From positions 1 through 47,605 of the forward strand of contig NZ_CAJXYK010000047.1 of NCBI RefSeq assembly GCF_913063425.1: a stretch of 47,605 nucleotides of DNA, read 5' to 3'. Numbering within the stretch: the first letter of the stretch is position 1; each line of letters begins with the position of its first letter. Source of the DNA: an uncultured Thiohalocapsa sp. (GTDB lineage: Bacteria > Pseudomonadota > Gammaproteobacteria > Chromatiales > Chromatiaceae). Positions 40,014 to 47,605 of this stretch are shown here, piece after piece. Below the pieces are notes generated by a model that saw only the letters and a list, made by a program, of their open reading frames with translations, was not told where the DNA came from and did no database searches. The position numbers and the translations under genes were made by a program.

Positions 40014-40829
40014 ATGGATTCCAGGCTTTCCACGGCCACAACCCACACCATCGCCGACGTGCAGGCGAGCGCCGACAGTCGCCGCATCGCCATCGACAAG
40101 GTCGGCATCAAAGACATCCGCCACCCTGTGCGCATCAAAGACCGTAGTGGGCACGAGCAGCACACAGTGGCCACATTCAACATGTTCGTGTACCTGCCGC
40201 ACAACTTCAAAGGCACGCACATGTCCCGCTTCGTGGCCATACTGAACGGCCACGAGGACGAGATCGGCGTCGCCACCTTCAAGCAGATGCTCGCGGAAAT
40301 GGCCGAGCGGCTGGAGTCCGAAGCGGGTCACATCGAAATGCGCTTCCCGTTCTTCGTCCGGAAGCAGGCCCCGGTCACCGGCGTGCCGAGCCTGATGGAC
40401 TACGACGTGACGCTCATCGGCGAGATCCGCGACGGCAAGCCGCAGATGTCCATCAAGGTCGTGGTGCCGGTGACCAGCCTCTGCCCCTGCTCCAAGGAGA
40501 TCTCAGACTACGGCGCGCACAACCAGCGCTCGCACATCACCGTGCAGGCCGCGACCCGTGGGTTTCTGTGGATCGAGGAGCTGATCGAGATGGTGGAGGC
40601 CGAGGCCTCATGCGAGCTCTACGGCCTGCTGAAGCGCCCGGACGAGAAGCATGTCACCGAGCGCGCCTACGATAACCCCAAGTTCGTCGAAGACACGGTC
40701 CGCGACGTCGCCAGCCGTCTCAACGATGACGAGCGCATCAGCGCTTATGTGGTGGAGGCCGAGAACTTCGAATCGATCCATAACCATTCGGCTTATGCGC
40801 TGGTCGCAAGAGAGAAGGAACCTCGGTAG
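40014..40829 (+). CDS. folE2: GTP cyclohydrolase FolE2 (type IB)
   Basis: A 271-residue protein with GAGGA before ATG 40014. Diagnostic features: the metal Cys in [35 protein letters not shown] and VAREKEPR-like end. FolE2 makes dihydroneopterin triphosphate from GTP, first step of folate synthesis, with a metal other than zinc and so works under zinc limitation. No Zur-like operator was recognised upstream. This is the last high-GC core-like gene before the composition changes. Confidence 0.96.
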
Positions 40830-41159
40830 GTACTTCGGTGCTTTGTCGCCTGTCCGTGTTGCGCGCTTGCAACCGCAGTTGTGGATTCGTCGCCGCACAG
40901 GGGCAACACCATGCGATTGCGCTGGCCATCTGAACTCAATGACCGCCAACTCGATACCGCCAGCACAAAGCCCCCGGAAAGGCGCTCGTAAGCCAGCAGC
41001 TGGTATTCCAAAAGGAACACACGTACACGCACTGTTGGAATCAGCACAATCCGGGCCGTAACAGCGGCATCCAGACCGACTGAGAGAACGTGAAACGTTT
41101 CCCCACTACTGCGCCCCGCGATCAGCATTCACTGTTGTCCGCGGCTTAACGGTGTCATC
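40830..41159. other. Gene-free boundary stretch before the lasso cluster
   Basis: About 330 bp between folE2 and the first lasso gene. Base composition starts to fall relative to the left side. No open frame here looks protein-like, no tRNA or integrase is visible, and no clear -35/-10 pair could be fixed. The promoter of the B1-B2 pair should lie in its right half. Confidence 0.4.
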
Positions 41160-41465
41160 ATGTCTACGGGAGAAACCCCTAGCCTGAGTATCGAGTGCAC
41201 CCTTCGCTTAGAGCCCCAAGTCGTTTCGCAAGCCATTGGCGACGAGGTCATCGTATTGCACCTAGGTACCGAGACGTACTTCGTGATCGATGGGACCGGC
41301 GCGCTGATCTGGTCAGGTATCCAGGAGCAGGTGTCGCTGTCTGCGATCCGTGATCGGATCATCCACTCTTACGCCGTGTCCAAACACCAGTGCGAGAGCG
41401 ACCTATTGTGCTTTGCGGGCGTACTGATCGAAAGCGGGCTCGCGTCAGTCGTTCGATCTGACTGA
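41160..41465 (+). CDS. Lasso peptide B1: PqqD-like RiPP recognition element
   Basis: A 101-residue PqqD-family protein. Beta strands QVVSQAIGDEVIVLHLGTET and the following YFVIDGTGALIWSGI form the winged-helix-like RRE. The helix-rich end (VSLSAIRDRIIHSYAVSKHQ, DLLCFAGVLIESGL) is standard. In lasso systems B1 binds the leader YxxPxL motif and hands the precursor to B2. The matching motif is present in the precursor at 45065. It ends 1 bp before the B2 gene. No strong ribosome site is seen. Confidence 0.9.
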   Translation: MSTGETPSLSIECTLRLEPQVVSQAIGDEVIVLHLGTETYFVIDGTGALIWSGIQEQVSLSAIRDRIIHSYAVSKHQCESDLLCFAGVLIESGLASVVRSD

Positions 41466-41466
41466 G

Positions 41467-41907
41467 ATGATATTCGCGATCAACCGCTTTCTCCGCTTGT
41501 CCTCGCAACGGCGCTCATTGCTCATTAAATCGTTTTTCCTGCTCCCAACCATTGACGTCCTACTGCGCGTCGCCGGATACAACCGTGCGCGTAAACTGCT
41601 GCTGAAAAGTTGTCTCAGCGTCCGGCCACTTCCGGCTTCCCAAGCCCAAATGGTGCGAGACGTTGCTTGGGCCGTACTCACAGCATCAAGGCGAGGCGCT
41701 TTGCGCGCAACCTGCTTACGCCGTTCACTGCTCATCGCTCATTTACTTCATTGTCGCGGCATCAGCGCGGAGATCCAGTTCGCCGCGCGACGCGGCCAAA
41801 AGGGCTTTGAGGCGCACGCCTGGGTAGAGTCGCAGGGAAAAGTCGTCGGTGATAGTCCAACAATCGGCGATTATTTCACAAAGTTGAGCGGCAGTCGGTC
41901 AAATTAA
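41467..41907 (+). CDS. Lasso peptide B2: transglutaminase-like leader peptidase
   Basis: A 146-residue protein of the McjB C-terminal type. The catalytic triad is visible: Cys83 in RATCLRRSLLI, His117 in FEAHAWVES and Asp129 in KVVGDS. The first 60 residues are helical and basic. B2 cleaves the leader after the residue following the conserved Thr(-2). Split B1/B2 proteins, as here, are common outside the McjB-type enteric systems. It is transcribed with B1. Confidence 0.92.
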   Translation: MIFAINRFLRLSSQRRSLLIKSFFLLPTIDVLLRVAGYNRARKLLLKSCLSVRPLPASQAQMVRDVAWAVLTASRRGALRATCLRRSLLIAHLLHCRGISAEIQFAARRGQKGFEAHAWVESQGKVVGDSPTIGDYFTKLSGSRSN

Positions 41908-42177
41908 CCCAATGCCGAAGATCCCGCCCCCTCTGAAGGGCAAGTCGATGCATAGCGTCCTGTAAAGTGAACGGTCCGATCCGGGTGACGGCCAAGCGCG
42001 TCGAGCACCGAATCGATCTCCGTTGCATTGCTTTAATCGAGGGGCAGTACACCGAATGCGCAACAGTATCCACTGAAAACCTGACCTCCCGAACGCCACC
42101 GGCGGCACTAGCGCAGTCGGCCTTGAGCCGAACCCTAGCGTGTGTTTCACTCCAGCAGGAAAGCAATCCCCAAAAAC

Positions 42178-43131
42178 TCAACCTGTTGCACTTCGCCCTA
42201 GAAGTCCCGACGCGATCATCGAGACAACCGAGGGCAACAACTCATACCGCCTCGGATAGCTGATGCGCACGACGGGCTTGGCCTCCACTACGCAGCCGAT
42301 CTTGCCCAAGATTCTGGATACATGCCCGCTGTCGCTCGTATCCAGCTTAAAACATTGCGACAGCAGATACGCCATCGCCTCCATCCGCGTTGTGGGCGAC
42401 AGTTCGATGTGCCCTGGGCCTCCTTCGACAGGTTGGTCAAGTAGGACGACGCCCCCCAGTGGTACCAGCTGCGCGGCTTCGGTTGATACCTCGGGGAGAC
42501 AGCGAAGCTTGGAGCTGACAGGTGATACCGGGGATTGCCGGTATCCGGAAATGTGCGTGCGCGCAACGGAATCCGGCCACAGTCGCATTCCGGGATAAGC
42601 ACCCACACACGATACTCCGGTTGCGCAGCAGTCCACGCGCAGCGCGTCGTCACAAAGAACGGTGCCACCTACGCCGACAAGGGCGGCGCTCAGTGTCGAC
42701 TTGCCGAATCCACTGGGGCCCATAAGGCAGATTGCAGAGCCCCACAACTCGACACCGGCCGCATGCAGAACCAGATTGTCCCGATGCGCGAACAGCCTTG
42801 GCAGAGCTTGGTCGATCAGCAACCGCCGCACTTCAGACATTGCAGCTCCCGCGTACCGTTCACAATCAATGCTGCACCCGTCGTCGTCGATTCGATAGGC
42901 CGCAACCCGCGGATAGTCCAGCAGGTAGCCGCCCTGGATACTTCCGGCTCGCACTTCCGGCACCGGGGCGGCGGCCGGCCACTCCACGTACCAGCATTTC
43001 GGGCGCTCAAGACCGGACTTCAGACGAACACGGATCTGATCCGTCGCCTCTTGCTCGGAAAGCATCGAGGGCAGTTCGGGAACCGGAAAGTCCACCAATA
43101 TGGGAAGATCAAAGAACCGATACCGATACAT
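42178..43131 (-). CDS. HPr-kinase-like lasso peptide kinase
   Basis: A 317-residue protein on the strand opposite to the other lasso genes. The kinase part has a P-loop GPSGFGKST (about residues 138-146) after NLVLHAAGVELWGSAICLM, then LCDDALRVD with the metal-binding Asp pair, and PGMRLWPDS, the HprK fold without its HPr-binding context. The N-terminal domain (YRYRFFDLPILVDFPVPELP) is also seen in these stand-alone HprK-like proteins. Known lasso kinases of this type (PadeK, ThcoK) phosphorylate the C-terminal Ser of the precursor; the precursor here ends in Ser. It starts 20 bp from the divergent cyclase gene. Confidence 0.88.
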   Translation of the reverse strand: MYRYRFFDLPILVDFPVPELPSMLSEQEATDQIRVRLKSGLERPKCWYVEWPAAAPVPEVRAGSIQGGYLLDYPRVAAYRIDDDGCSIDCERYAGAAMSEVRRLLIDQALPRLFAHRDNLVLHAAGVELWGSAICLMGPSGFGKSTLSAALVGVGGTVLCDDALRVDCCATGVSCVGAYPGMRLWPDSVARTHISGYRQSPVSPVSSKLRCLPEVSTEAAQLVPLGGVVLLDQPVEGGPGHIELSPTTRMEAMAYLLSQCFKLDTSDSGHVSRILGKIGCVVEAKPVVRISYPRRYELLPSVVSMIASGLLGRSATG

Positions 43132-43151
43132 CGTCTGTTTCCGCTCTGACT

Positions 43152-45044
43152 ATGGCAATCTTCGCACTCATCCTGCATCCACCCGGCGTCACGGCAAAGC
43201 CCACCGAAGTGCAGTCATTGTTAGAACCGATTGACTACATGGGCGATGGCGAACACCACCTGCACGCCGAGGGACGCGTTGCAGTCGGCACCATGCCTTA
43301 CACCGCAGAGGAGCTGGCCGATGACGGTGGCGCCCCAAAATTCGACTGCAGCGGCCGCTACTTGATTGTCGGGGACATCCGGCTGAACTGTCGCTCTGAG
43401 CTTGCCGCGCAGCTGCGTCTTGAATGCGGTGTGCCTCCGGCAGACTGTAGCGATCAGGACCTCGTATTAGCCGCGTTCCTACGGTGGGGTGACGATTGCT
43501 GTCGACATTTCGACGGCGACTACGCATTTGCCCTCTACGATTTGACACGGCAGCGACTCTTCGCTGCCGGGGATGCGCTCGCTTGCTACCGCATATTTAC
43601 CGTACATCTCGCGTCCGGAGCCTTGCTACTGACCTCGGAACTTAGCTGCGCTCTTGCCGCCCCAGGTATAGCGCTCGGGTTCTCCATGCCTGACTTACTC
43701 CTATCGCTCTCCGGACTTCCCTTGCGGACGCGCAGTCTATTCGAGGGAATCGGCATCATCCCGCCCGGCAGCAGCCTGATCGATCACCAGGGTGAGCGCC
43801 GCGTGACTTCATGGTGGTCGCCGGAGCACATCCAAAAACGAATTCGCTACGCGGACGCAAGGGAATACGGTGAGCACTATCGAGAACTACTTCAAGCCTG
43901 CGTTAACGATCGGATGCGAACCCGATCCGGAACGCTTCTGGTCGAGTTGAGCGGCGGCCTGGACTCGAGTTCCATCGCTGCACTGGCCCTGAGGCTAGCA
44001 CATGAGCAGAGCTTGGAAATCGTATGTATCTCGCACGTCTACGACGACCCGGATTGTAACGAAGAGATGCAGGTCATGCGCTCGCTTTGGCAGCACTTCG
44101 GCGTGCGAGTACTGACCCTGGATGGCACTGCGCTGACGCACGAATACCTGCCTCTGAAGGCAGCCCCGCGCCCCGAATCGCCCATGGCGCTCAACCATCC
44201 ATTCCAAATCCATGGCGCACGTGAAGCAGATGCAATCGGCGCCGACGTCATTCTATGCGGAACCGGTGGAGATGAAATGACCAAGGGTCGCCCAGGCGCG
44301 GACAGCCTTAACCTCCTCTTACAAGGAGATTGGTCACTGATACGCGGCGCTTGGCGAGACCGAGGCCATGGAGTGGTCGGACTTGCGGCCGCGATCACTC
44401 AAGCCGGGGCGGTGCCTCTACTCAAACACGCGATAGGACCCTCGGCTTCCATTACGGCGCGCCGTATGACCCGGCGTCTGCTGCCAACTACCAAGACCCT
44501 CGGCGGCATTTCACCACGCCTAAGGCAAGCGCATATCGCTGACGCGGAGGCGCTGCTTCGGGAAGCTATTCCTACCAGGGGACTAAATACATTCGAGCAC
44601 GAATTTTTGTTGCGGTTGCGGACCAGCGCGTCGCTCAACGCATGCGACGCGTACCGGCTGAACGCGGGTAGATACGGCATCACGGCGCAGCACCCGTTCT
44701 TTGACCTACGAATTGCGTCGTTTCAACTGAGCACACCGCCGGAGTTGTGGGGCCGCCTTGGACGCAGGAAACTCCTCCCACGCCAAGCCATGCGCGGGCT
44801 GCTTCCCAAAAGCGTCTGTGACGCCAGAAAATTCAACCTAATGCGCCCACAGCTGGACGCGTGGGATGCCGGTAAAGCGGCAGCGGCAGCACTTACTGCA
44901 AACCTGGATGGCAGCTCCAGGATGGGGAGACAGCTGAATGCAGCACTTGACTTTCCCCGACAAGTTCCACAAGATTTCCCCTATACGCTGCCGGCGCTGT
45001 ACGCTTTGACACTCGTCAGTTGGGTTCAGCAAAGATGTAACTAG
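43152..45044 (+). CDS. Lasso peptide C: asparagine-synthetase-like macrolactam cyclase
   Basis: A 630-residue McjC-type enzyme. ATG 43152 gives MAIFALILHPPG, the normal N-terminus of the glutaminase-like domain, but residue 2 is Ala rather than Cys, so glutaminase activity is absent as in lasso cyclases. The synthetase domain has the PP-loop LSGGLDSSSIAALAL (near residue 267) and CGTGGDEM. It activates the ring Asp as an adenylate and joins it to the new N-terminal amine. The longer open frame upstream is antisense to the kinase and not credible. No good ribosome site is visible. The precursor gene follows after 20 bp. Confidence 0.93.
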   Translation: MAIFALILHPPGVTAKPTEVQSLLEPIDYMGDGEHHLHAEGRVAVGTMPYTAEELADDGGAPKFDCSGRYLIVGDIRLNCRSELAAQLRLECGVPPADCSDQDLVLAAFLRWGDDCCRHFDGDYAFALYDLTRQRLFAAGDALACYRIFTVHLASGALLLTSELSCALAAPGIALGFSMPDLLLSLSGLPLRTRSLFEGIGIIPPGSSLIDHQGERRVTSWWSPEHIQKRIRYADAREYGEHYRELLQACVNDRMRTRSGTLLVELSGGLDSSSIAALALRLAHEQSLEIVCISHVYDDPDCNEEMQVMRSLWQHFGVRVLTLDGTALTHEYLPLKAAPRPESPMALNHPFQIHGAREADAIGADVILCGTGGDEMTKGRPGADSLNLLLQGDWSLIRGAWRDRGHGVVGLAAAITQAGAVPLLKHAIGPSASITARRMTRRLLPTTKTLGGISPRLRQAHIADAEALLREAIPTRGLNTFEHEFLLRLRTSASLNACDAYRLNAGRYGITAQHPFFDLRIASFQLSTPPELWGRLGRRKLLPRQAMRGLLPKSVCDARKFNLMRPQLDAWDAGKAAAAALTANLDGSSRMGRQLNAALDFPRQVPQDFPYTLPALYALTLVSWVQQRCN

Positions 45045-45064
45045 TCACCTCGGAGTATGACGAC

Positions 45065-45238
45065 ATGGCGAAAGAAGCCGAACCGCACACCAAGCCGCGA
45101 GAAGACGTGTCCGCTAACCGTAGAGTTCGCAAAGAATATGCCCCTCCACGACTGCAAACTCTCGACATCATGTCCGTACTGACTAAGGGCGGAGGCAACA
45201 TTCAGGGCGGCGACAACCCGTTCGTCAACGGATCGTAG
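45065..45238 (+). CDS. Lasso peptide precursor (A gene), 57 residues
   Basis: CGGAG lies 9 bp before ATG 45065. The leader (residues 1-41) contains KEYAPPRLQTLD with the YxxPxL motif (Tyr25, Pro28, Leu30) recognised by B1, and ends VLTK with Thr40 at -2. The predicted core (42-57) is GGGNIQGGDNPFVNGS: Gly1 and Asp9 can form a nine-residue macrolactam, leaving a seven-residue loop/tail NPFVNGS that ends in Ser, the acceptor for the nearby kinase. Computed monoisotopic mass of the cyclised core is 1470.65 Da, or 1550.62 Da with one phosphate. The core matches no lasso peptide I know. A less likely cut one residue later would give an eight-residue ring. Confidence 0.9.
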   Translation: MAKEAEPHTKPREDVSANRRVRKEYAPPRLQTLDIMSVLTKGGGNIQGGDNPFVNGS

Positions 45239-45254
45239 TTCAGACCGCGCGGAT

Positions 45255-45274
45255 TGGGGGAGGCTTCTCCCCCA
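45255..45274 (+). terminator. Hairpin after the lasso precursor gene
   Basis: TGGGGGAG-GCTT-CTCCCCCA forms an 8-bp stem with a 4-nt loop, 17 bp after the precursor stop. There is no T-run after it, so it is either a weak terminator or a stabilising 3' stem for the precursor mRNA. The remaining 45275-45429 holds no gene. Confidence 0.55.
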
Positions 45275-45429
45275 TCAGCAGTCACGCCGATCACGCGCGC
45301 CATTTTTCCGCCCAAAGAAGAGGCCGGACCAAGCCCCACGGCGTGCATGCCGCCAGGACCGTAACCGGGGGTCACGATGGCGCGCCGACCTGACCAGAAC
45401 TCCCGGCGACAGCGCGATCTCGCCCAGCG

Positions 45430-46239
45430 TCAAACCCCTGCACAGCGCTCTCGGCCGGACGTTCTCGCCGGCAACGCCCGGAAAGCCAGTATGGCCAGAC
45501 CAACAACAAACATGGCCGCAGTCGGTGGCACTGGCGTATACCGCAGATTAGCTACCGCGACGCCGGATGGGTCGTCACTGATGATAGATATCCCCGCTAT
45601 CGGTTGATTCGCCGATATGATGAACGGCTGCAGCAAAGCCCCACCCGTGGCAAGATCGGGAAAGATTGACGAACCTATAAACGCGCCATCACGCCCATAG
45701 GCATACAACTCCACGAAGCTCGTTGCAGACTCGACGCCGATGACGTCAAGACCGATAATCTCTTGGTCCAAGTCGTACAGGATTGAAAAGGCGCCGGGTG
45801 TCGACGTCCCGGCGAGTAGGCCACCAACCACATTCTTGCCGATCAGCGCTGAGCTAAGCAGACTGCCGTCTGCGATCAGCAGATTCCGATCTGCGCCTTG
45901 GCCGACCAACCGCAGGGGTGCCGCAGGGGTCGGCGGCGCGGGCACAAATCCCTCGTAGCTCGTTACGCCGCTTAAGGTTGTCGACTGGTCGGGGGCGAAA
46001 ACCCCCGACATTGTTGCGCCGCCGATGGCGACGGCGTCTGGGTACTGGAGGAAGGAGCCGCCGTTGTTCAACATGTTCACGCCGTCCTGGACCGCAGGAA
46101 CATCGGAAGAGCATGCACCCGGGTTGGTTATGCAATTGGTGACCGTAAGCACTGCGCCGACGTCCGCGGACATCGGGGCGATAAGGCAGAATGACGCCAA
46201 GAGATACTGTCGGACTTGCGATCTAAGCCGTTTCTGCAT
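45430..46239 (-). CDS. Exported PEP-CTERM-like surface protein
   Basis: A 269-residue protein with a signal peptide (RQYLLASFCLIAPMSADVGA). The mature part is Gly/Ser/Ala-rich, low in Cys, with beta-type repeats such as GVTSYEGFVPAP and YAYGRDGAFIGSSIF. The C-terminus reads PVPPTAAMFVVGLAILAFRA and then a basic tail (LPARTSGRER). That is a tripartite sorting signal (Pro motif, helix, Arg cluster) resembling PEP-CTERM/VPxP-type signals processed by an exosortase. No exosortase gene is in the window. It is convergent with the lasso precursor gene and probably unrelated to it. Confidence 0.75.
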   Translation of the reverse strand: MQKRLRSQVRQYLLASFCLIAPMSADVGAVLTVTNCITNPGACSSDVPAVQDGVNMLNNGGSFLQYPDAVAIGGATMSGVFAPDQSTTLSGVTSYEGFVPAPPTPAAPLRLVGQGADRNLLIADGSLLSSALIGKNVVGGLLAGTSTPGAFSILYDLDQEIIGLDVIGVESATSFVELYAYGRDGAFIGSSIFPDLATGGALLQPFIISANQPIAGISIISDDPSGVAVANLRYTPVPPTAAMFVVGLAILAFRALPARTSGRERCAGV

Positions 46240-47206
46240 TTTCTACCCTATGTGTTGTTTGAATTGCTGACGTCGGATTTCTGTTGGCAATGACTCGGCA
46301 TTGCCGCGCTCCCCACGGGGAGGCGGGCCCGGCCGAATCGCTGCTCGCGATGGTGAACGCCGAAAGGCGGCTCTGCGGTTTCGACGCCCACCGCCGGGGC
46401 GCCCCCTCCATCCGTCGCCGGGCAGTCACTCCTGGCGTTTCAGGGACGCTCCGATGCTCGTCCGATGCCTGCAAACGGTGCACCAGAACTCATAACCTAT
46501 TGCAAAACATATTTTTGTCCGCCATCTCATCCCGGCCCACTCCAGACTATGGCCTGCAATTGTAAAGAATTTGGACACCCGTTCCTCTGGCATCGGCGCC
46601 CTAACGGCGTTGCTTAGTCGTAACGCACTGAAAAATATCAAGACTTTACCCAGGCCACAGGAAGCCGGTTGGGCGCTCACAGTCTAAGCCAGCCTCCCAT
46701 AGTGTAAAGTTTGACCCATCAAAGTCTTCAGGCGCAGAAGAGCGTTGTTAGGCTGCATCGCTTACCGCAGGGTACTCCAACAACGTCCCCGGAATCCGAT
46801 TTTTGGGCTGCGGTCCAACTGGGGCAGGGCGGAACGCGGCTGCAAGCCCTCGATGCCCACCGATCACGGGCAACTGACGGGTTGCTAGCCTCAGACAGGA
46901 ACCAAATCACGCACCGGTTTTGTCCGCCGGATACTCGCCGCTCGCGTCGCAGACTGCTTCGTTGTCAATCGGGACATTGCTGTTCAAAACATGCACAGCT
47001 TCCTCGCGCAGTTGCGACAAGCGCTGGCGGGCCAGACGACCGCTTCCGGCGCTGTCTAGTGAACGGGCAGGCAGCCTAGACTCCGCAGCGATCAACACCG
47101 CACCCCGAAGTCGAGAGACCCGACAGGCTACTATGACTCGGGGCAAAGCTCGCGCCGAAGCGTCGTCGTTATCCGGGTAACGCAGCCGCAGGCATCAGTG
47201 GCCCGA
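46240..47206. other. Long stretch without a recognisable gene
   Basis: About 970 bp. Several frames of 60-120 codons exist on both strands, but none has a convincing ribosome site, domain or composition. I searched for transposase, tRNA and attachment-like repeats and saw none. The stretch could contain decayed genes: a minus-strand frame at 46907-47146 includes ARQRLSQLREEAVHVLNS, which is mildly protein-like. Confidence 0.4.
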
Positions 47207-47605
47207 TCAACCCCCGAGCAAGCGCTGAACCATCATGCGGCGCAACTCGCGACGCCGTTCAGATCGCCTGAAACGGTGCGGGAAAGATAGGTCCGGTGTA
47301 GGTAGTCCCAGAAAATCGCACAACGGCTTCCAGCCTGCGCCGCCCTCAATGTCGAGCTGGACGAAGCGTTCCTGCTCCGCAAAATGAGCTTTCGCACGGG
47401 CAGCATGCTCCCGAAACGATTGCCGACAGAGGTTGGCATCAAAGCGGTCGGTGCCGTAGAGATCTCGGTGGAGCTGCACTGAGAAGGGGTCGAGGCCGCC
47501 GGTCGCGAACTGATCCGCGAAGGAAGCCAGCCAAGCGTCCTCATCCCGCAGCGTGAGGATGAATTTCGCATCCGGATACCGCTCGTCCAGCTGGGGATAG
47601 ATCCG
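47207..47605 (-). CDS. Sulfotransferase family protein (C-terminal part, cut by window edge)
   Basis: The minus strand is open from the window edge (47605) to a stop at 47209-47207, 132 residues without the N-terminus. It reads LDERYPDAKFILTLRDEDAW, the 3'-phosphate-binding region of P-loop sulfotransferases, then ASFADQFATGG, a helix HAARAKAHFAEQERFVQLDI with the usual LDIEGGAGWKPLCDFLGLP segment, and FPHRFRRSERR. The last phrase is the standard 'L..FLG.P.P...FP' end of the family. The 5'-phosphosulfate loop must lie outside the window. Substrate unknown. Confidence 0.85.
   Translation of the reverse strand, partial: RIYPQLDERYPDAKFILTLRDEDAWLASFADQFATGGLDPFSVQLHRDLYGTDRFDANLCRQSFREHAARAKAHFAEQERFVQLDIEGGAGWKPLCDFLGLPTPDLSFPHRFRRSERRRELRRMMVQRLLGG

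Follow-up and report, generated by a model that had tools for sequence, protein, structure and literature searches.

The locus described here raises three questions: what a lasso-peptide gene cluster with a kinase of its own produces, at which residue that product would be phosphorylated, and whether the cluster ends where it appears to end. It lies in contig NZ_CAJXYK010000047.1 of an uncultured Thiohalocapsa sp. (assembly GCF_913063425.1), analysed as a single stretch of 47,605 nucleotides, hereafter the window. The purpose of lasso-peptide phosphorylation has not been worked out, according to the available part of a review (PMC9266682). The explanation that best covers the whole locus, and that we hold to be rather probable, is that of a horizontally exchanged cluster for a phosphorylated lasso peptide, accompanied by a cell-surface partner protein.

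Open reading frames together with Pfam and NCBIfam matches confirm five genes at 41160-45238 (A, B1, B2, K and C), as the initial annotation had proposed. Families and motifs alike uphold its reading of the locus as a lasso cluster that has an HprK-like kinase of its own, and by its sequence the cluster is a genuine one. The features of the region, including two beyond the precursor gene, are as follows.

41160-41465, plus strand: B1, PqqD-like leader-binding protein (an RRE, or recognition element of ribosomally synthesized and post-translationally modified peptides, RiPPs), 101 amino acids; PF05402, E 9e-11
41467-41907, plus strand: B2, leader peptidase, 146 amino acids, with C83/H117/D129; NF033537 and PF13471
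42178-43131, minus strand: K, HprK-like kinase, 317 amino acids, antisense to B1-B2 and C; sub-cut-off Pfam and NCBIfam matches and motif
43152-45044, plus strand: C, lasso (isopeptide-forming) cyclase, 630 amino acids; NF033535, PF00733 and SGGLDSSS
45065-45238, plus strand: A, precursor, 57 amino acids; YAPPRL, T(-2) and predicted core GGGNIQGGDNPFVNGS
45430-46239, minus strand: likely partner protein, 269 amino acids, with a signal-peptide-like start and a PEP-CTERM-like tail; convergent with A, homologues at lasso loci
47207-47605, minus strand: Sulfotransfer_4 protein, truncated by the contig end to a C-terminal piece; PF17784, E 8.4e-23; cluster membership uncertain

B1 scores 41 bits against the NCBIfam model lasso_PqqD_Bac, under its cut-off of 80, and B2, a transglutaminase-like protein, reaches 80.6 bits against lasso_biosyn_B2 (NF033537, cut-off 33) and an E value of 4.9e-22 for PF13471; the residues C83, H117 and D129 previously listed for it are all located in the translation. 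The cyclase matches NF033535 (lass_lactam_cya) at 159.3 bits (E 1.4e-46), below the strict cut-off of 525, and PF00733 (Asn_synthase) at 95.7 bits (E 5.6e-27). It carries SGGLDSSS at 267 and starts with MAIF, in agreement with its earlier assignment as a McjC-type cyclase without Cys2. The kinase gives 21.8 bits with Hpr_kinase_C (Pfam cut-off 33.3) and 32.7 bits with HprK_rel_A (NCBIfam cut-off 200), and since both matches fall below the curated cut-offs, it is a remote relative of HprK. The reported GPSGFGKST is present, on a minus strand that the earlier description did not mention, and is joined by the His-Lys-Asp-Asp set H123/K144/D161/D162, which is invariant across 13 aligned sequences (the window counted in) and kept in full in 36 of 40 kinase homologues.

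The precursor combines a YAPPRL leader motif and T(-2) with a predicted core, GGGNIQGGDNPFVNGS, made up of a GGGNIQGGD ring (G1-D9) and a seven-residue tail, NPFVNGS, so that the features of lasso precursors, namely an RRE motif, T(-2), an N-terminal Gly and an acidic residue at positions 7-9 (D9), are all found. The leader fits the published RRE-binding motif [Y/W]xxPx[L/V/I/A/F/Y], as given in the accessible text of PMC13381572. The C-terminal Ser16 is the sole Ser/Thr/Tyr of the predicted core. The computed [M+H]+ is 1471.656 for the cyclised peptide and 1551.622 with one phosphate.

The gene that follows the precursor lies outside the coordinates of the initial annotation, which does not mention it; the cluster appears larger than noted. 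The tail of the encoded protein, VPPTAAMFVVGLAILAFRALPARTSGR, is composed of VPPT, a hydrophobic stretch and a basic end, a degenerate PEP-CTERM-like signal that follows the pattern of such tails though without a model match; its homologue at locus L040 exceeds the TIGR02595 cut-off. The genome itself encodes exosortases, with three matches above the PF09721 cut-off. Homologues of the partner are found at L040, L121, L124, L129, L134, L053 and L110, with L058 linked through L053, and the first five of these, loci of a single genus (g36) whose kinases are nearest to that of the window, all carry a relative. When 20 whole genomes were searched with the partner-type protein of genome G545, nine matches were obtained in nine genomes, eight of them at lasso loci (G545, the query itself, G114, G512, G498, G000, G483, G536 and G053); the ninth and weakest, in G002, lies away from the lasso locus. 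A protein related to that of G053 is encoded at the lasso locus of G092, yet this remained below threshold in the same search. In a set of 20 genomes, all but one of which were also in that search, PF07589 yields 241 matches at E <= 0.1, and with eight of nine partner matches at lasso loci the pairing is not explained by abundance.

Other lasso loci carry two further sets of related PEP-CTERM-like proteins, one of which seems to recur outside the family. At L234 a full cluster has the order PEP-A-K, a core near-identical to the L044 and L135 cores and a PEP-CTERM-like protein with a tail over the TIGR02595 cut-off, which is likened to the L044/L135 set by these features. At L149 a kinase has next to it a PEP-CTERM-like gene akin to the L044 and L135 genes, and neither B2 nor a cyclase was found within 13 kb. 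The cores of L234, L044 and L135, which share the PEP-A-K order and come from two families of the class, are of a GFxGSxPDExGxxTKRNPxQG type, and their near-identity suggests transfer.

The association was also counted with a strict tail pattern. Among 36 fetched loci, the window excluded, that hold a kinase with B2 and/or a cyclase, the pattern occurs at 10, with 12 matches in 498,278 bases, two of which are chance-like. Control stretches, arbitrary places in family genomes picked by the authors with no one-to-one matching, gave one match in 342,121 bases and four in 400,000 (two of these four look real), or five in 742,121 altogether; 3.4 matches would thus be expected against the 12 observed (Poisson P 2e-4, every match counted). 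The PEP-CTERM-like genes of L040, L124, L129, L178 and L182, which the pattern missed and which were found by homology or by eye, stay outside these counts. Where no kinase was in reach of a lasso locus, the pattern was found in 2 of 29 (L126, one of the 29, overlaps the kinase-holding L052): one match, at L141, adjoins a cyclase on a contig of 5.4 kb and the other is chance-like. Divided by the kinase tree discussed below, the pattern is present in 12 of 22 members of the window's group, the window counted, vs none of 13 others (12/20 vs 0/6 within the family). Among the literature matches listed, the available text describes no pairing of a lasso peptide with an exosortase or PEP-CTERM protein; of two papers that mention both lasso peptides and exosortases, one is on antiSMASH 5.0 and the other treats them in unrelated places. 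The partner is likely to be a dedicated, exosortase-type surface-sorted member of the cluster, and a new element of an otherwise known cluster kind.

The proposed acquisition of the cluster finds support in the place where it stands. The gene order of the window is dxs, ispA, folE2 and then the lasso cluster, and folE2 was found in 9 of 10 genomes searched of the genus. In G003 and G006, folE2 is followed by the gene for a Uup-type ATP-binding cassette protein with no lasso genes in between, while in G001, G005 and G008 a lasso cluster of another type occupies the interval between folE2 and uup, in the order C-A-K-PEP-B2-B1 in G005 and G008 (the precursor of G001 was not found). A lasso cluster of another type also adjoins folE2 in G002, where the contig ends inside it; in G004 a cyclase-like gene follows folE2, with no other lasso gene found, and in G009 the contig ends. 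In the window's own genome, uup starts near the end of contig C79, at a distance of 305 bases and in a fitting orientation, which is consistent with the cluster lying in the same folE2-uup interval. Acquisition is supported because sister genomes have this place either empty or occupied otherwise, and exchange of lasso clusters by horizontal transfer at one site is the best reading of these arrangements. The interval thereby offers a natural series of filled, refilled and empty sites for lasso-cluster exchange.

The lower GC (guanine-plus-cytosine) content noted initially is real, falling from 70.7% at 1-40829 to 56-61% through the five genes and on to the contig end at 47605, and the dip does not stop with the cluster, staying at ~60% as far as the contig end. 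Several observations accompany the site. The place after folE2 (40014-40829; L176, L178-L180, L182, L183) varies in this genus from one lasso cluster to another or has no such cluster, a PEP-CTERM-like gene separates kinase from B2 in the sister clusters there, and leaders with Val(-2) or Ile(-2) are tentatively seen at L179 and L157. A relative of the sulfotransferase piece at 47207-47605 adjoins the lasso cluster of G008 (L182) in the same place (E 1.8e-48), and Sulfitobacter (L159) and Thalassobaculum (L166) have sulfotransferase genes annotated a short way past their kinase or cyclase.

The following pathway is proposed, its enzymatic steps being deduced from the protein families. B1 would bind the YAPPRL leader, and the kinase, probably aided by B1, would phosphorylate the linear precursor, most likely at Ser16. 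B2 would then cleave after the Lys that follows T(-2), and the cyclase would form the bond between Asp9 and the Gly1 amino group and thread the tail, giving a product with a predicted [M+H]+ of 1471.66, or 1551.62 with one phosphate. The secreted PEP-CTERM-like protein, sorted by a host exosortase, would serve as the cell-surface partner of the peptide, whether as carrier, receptor or immunity protein. Ser16 is the likeliest site because the core has no other Ser/Thr/Tyr, if the core is the substrate, and we regard phosphorylation there as probable.

A number of results weigh against this pathway. No transporter gene is found among the annotated proteins of 40014-47605, the only part of the window annotated, and the word 'complete', which had been used of the cluster, therefore applies to A, B1, B2 and C. 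AlphaFold models were too poor to use, with predicted local distance difference test (pLDDT) values of 36.7 for the partner and 32.1 for the kinase. The kinase tree bears most directly on the phosphosite. It contains 36 kinases with locus-checked precursors, taken from 25 of the 36 kinase-bearing loci, from L044, L037 and L179, from seven plasmid loci and from the window. The C-terminal residues of these precursors are Ser in 10, Pro in 7, Thr in 6, Gly in 4, Glu in 3 and six others once each, counts that refute the idea that every precursor of a kinase cluster ends in Ser. The window kinase falls in a group of 22 with moderate support (84/94), in which the window precursor is the only one that ends in Ser, vs 9 of 13 elsewhere (Fisher P 9e-5, inflated by shared ancestry); the Paenibacillus kinase L161, whose precursor ends in Ser, falls outside the group, by a split with the same 84/94 support only. 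In the assigned cores of the group, ring position 5 is Ser/Thr in 11 of 21 and any ring Ser/Thr is present in 18 of 21, and the window ring has none. The terminal Ser of the window may accordingly be a matter of chance, as it is 1 of 22 in its group and as the window core lacks the Ser/Thr that 11 of the 21 have at ring position 5.

From these counts a different action of the kinase can be argued, namely that it belongs to a ring-serine, BsfK-like type whose relatives often target position 5, and that, with the ring site lost, its activity is weak, absent or directed at a leader residue. According to the accessible text, phosphorylation by BsfK falls on ring Ser3 of an Asp-ending precursor (PMC10368454) and that by LppK on the internal Ser3 of a linear peptide (PMC13381572). 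The lone Ser-ending precursor among 22 fits this account, as does Ser/Thr at position 5 in 11 of the group's 21 assigned cores vs 1 of 8 elsewhere, a difference (Fisher P 0.09) that does not uphold position 5 as a divider of two kinase groups and is inflated by kinship, within a group of 84/94 support only and a tree drawn without BsfK. The window kinase retains all its catalytic residues, and the one hydroxyl of its core sits where known C-terminal kinases act, so that we consider ring-serine specificity doubtful, if far from negligible. It is, by comparison, very improbable that the true substrate is another protein, such as the PEP-CTERM-like neighbour, with the lasso peptide left unphosphorylated: genes with strict-pattern tails do adjoin 12 of 22 members of the kinase group and none of 13 others, but the partner looks exported while the kinase shows no sign of export, the characterised relatives modify their own peptide as far as the available text goes, and the kinase is also present in clusters where a PEP-CTERM-like gene was not found. 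Terminal phosphorylation at Ser16 remains the preferred reading. The earlier proposal of PadeK/ThcoK-type phosphorylation of a C-terminal Ser is thus retained in part: catalytic residues and a Ser-ending precursor are in place, but the analogy is weakened, as the other precursors of the group do not end in Ser and BsfK acts on ring Ser3, and a C-terminally phosphorylated product survives as a proposal because Ser16 is the lone core hydroxyl. The presence of a kinase alone does not give the phosphorylation site, nor need the product of a lasso kinase carry its phosphate on a C-terminal Ser; this is relevant to automated product prediction.

The partner is subject to a doubt of its own, that it is a bystander on a genomic island, outside the pathway. 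The low GC spanning the whole region to the contig end and the abundance of such proteins already noted would agree with this. Against the main reading itself, the window protein has a degenerate tail and no Pfam or NCBIfam match, most of the 20 genomes searched with the G545 protein were picked for holding such clusters and 11 of the 20 gave no match, and five of the eight partner loci come from one genus and may represent one inheritance. Among other members of the window kinase group, no partner gene was found at L038, L147 and L158 (stretches of 11-16 kb) or at L042 and L037 (contigs of 6-8 kb); L039, of the same group, lies on a 6.3-kb contig too short to show one. That chance neighbourhood is the explanation nevertheless seems unlikely to us, given that eight of nine matches of the 20-genome search stand at lasso loci, that the association persists though the position of the gene varies (after A, before C, or between K and B2) and that related cases turn up beyond the family at L234, with a full cluster, and L149, with a kinase only.

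Some details of the tree qualify its counts. Eleven loci did not enter it because no precursor could be assigned to them with confidence (L050, L054, L116, L119, L123, L136, L137, L144, L148, L151 and L152), the candidate at L136 ending in A, as does an unused second candidate at L052. The L179 kinase, mistranslated with six internal stops, is in the tree and among the eight of the position-5 comparison, and outside the 22-vs-13 count; for L048, which has two kinases, the copy without His and the last Asp was used. A core was assigned for all but seven of the 36 precursors, with an ambiguous start in L124, and the tree was built without 20 phylum-wide loci and without PadeK, ThcoK, SyanK, PsmK, BsfK and LppK.

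Set beside known systems, the cluster resembles those of the paeninodin type (PadeK, ThcoK, PsmK) and of SyanK, a proteobacterial lasso kinase for C-terminal Ser according to the available parts of reviews (PMC9266682 among them), in having A, B1, B2 and C, an HprK-like kinase with His-Lys-Asp-Asp and a Ser-ending precursor; for these kinases and for BsfK, the comparison is with their descriptions rather than directly with their sequences. Unlike them, its kinase belongs to a tree group otherwise without C-terminal Ser, the kinase gene is antisense, a PEP-CTERM-like gene lies alongside, and no transporter or nucleotidyltransferase is present among the genes annotated near it. With BsfK and the Bradymonadales clusters it shares an HprK-like kinase with B1, B2 and C, and the other precursors of its kinase group are likewise not Ser-ending and mostly have ring Ser/Thr, but its leader has Thr(-2) rather than Ile(-2) and its ring is devoid of Ser/Thr. 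The LppK system for linear polyphosphorylated peptides also pairs an RRE with an HprK-like kinase, but has no macrolactam cyclase, whereas the window has B2 and a lasso cyclase. The partner shares a signal-peptide-like start, a tripartite tail and host exosortases with PEP-CTERM/exosortase systems, from which it differs in its degenerate tail (VPPT) and in the tie of its gene to a RiPP cluster.

A recurring surface-sorted partner, as candidate receptor, carrier or immunity protein, would provide a handle on the purpose of phosphorylation. We tentatively suggest, as a possibility that falls short of even, that kinase-lasso clusters with an exosortase-sorted protein of their own form a distinct sub-kind, centred on one proteobacterial family with few cases outside, in which this protein displays, receives or neutralises the (phospho)lasso peptide; if true, it would tie RiPP biosynthesis to the PEP-CTERM/exopolysaccharide surface system.

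Within the cluster, the predicted starts of K and C lie head to head, 20 bp apart (43131-43152), which leaves no space for promoters between them; promoter and terminator scans gave nothing above chance level. Three other loci, L039, L121 and L124, likewise have the kinase gene antisense to B genes and cyclase alike. At E <= 1e-5, kinase matches were obtained in 26 of 190 related genomes, the own genome counted, and B2 matches in 50 of 194 family genomes. A first kinase scan of genome contigs found no relative and a second found three loci, L059, L060 and L061, of which L059 is usable; L060 was dropped as a lasso kinase because it resembles an ordinary HPr kinase, and a profile search found no kinase in L061. 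Solved structures matched the kinase profile over the short P-loop region only, HPr kinases included. The window kinase finds a single match in its own genome, itself, and at L137, on contig C1 of the same genome, stands a second kinase/B2/B1 set, with cyclase and precursor not found in 13 kb. Second kinase copies at L048:14672-15610 and L123:1214-2284 lack the catalytic His and last Asp and are possibly pseudokinases beside intact ones.

Named plasmid-borne relatives include those of Antarctobacter, Sulfitobacter, Paracoccus, Tistrella, a Paenibacillus and the archaeon Halopiger; a plasmid search with the cyclase returned one distant record at E <= 1e-10, a Gloeothece Asn synthetase. The plasmid of Halopiger xanaduensis (L163) carries archaeal B1, B2, cyclase, HprK-like kinase and nucleotidyltransferase genes, with a flippase gene nearby, and the alphaproteobacterial lasso-kinase clusters L158 and L164 adjoin glycosyltransferase and other exopolysaccharide-type genes.

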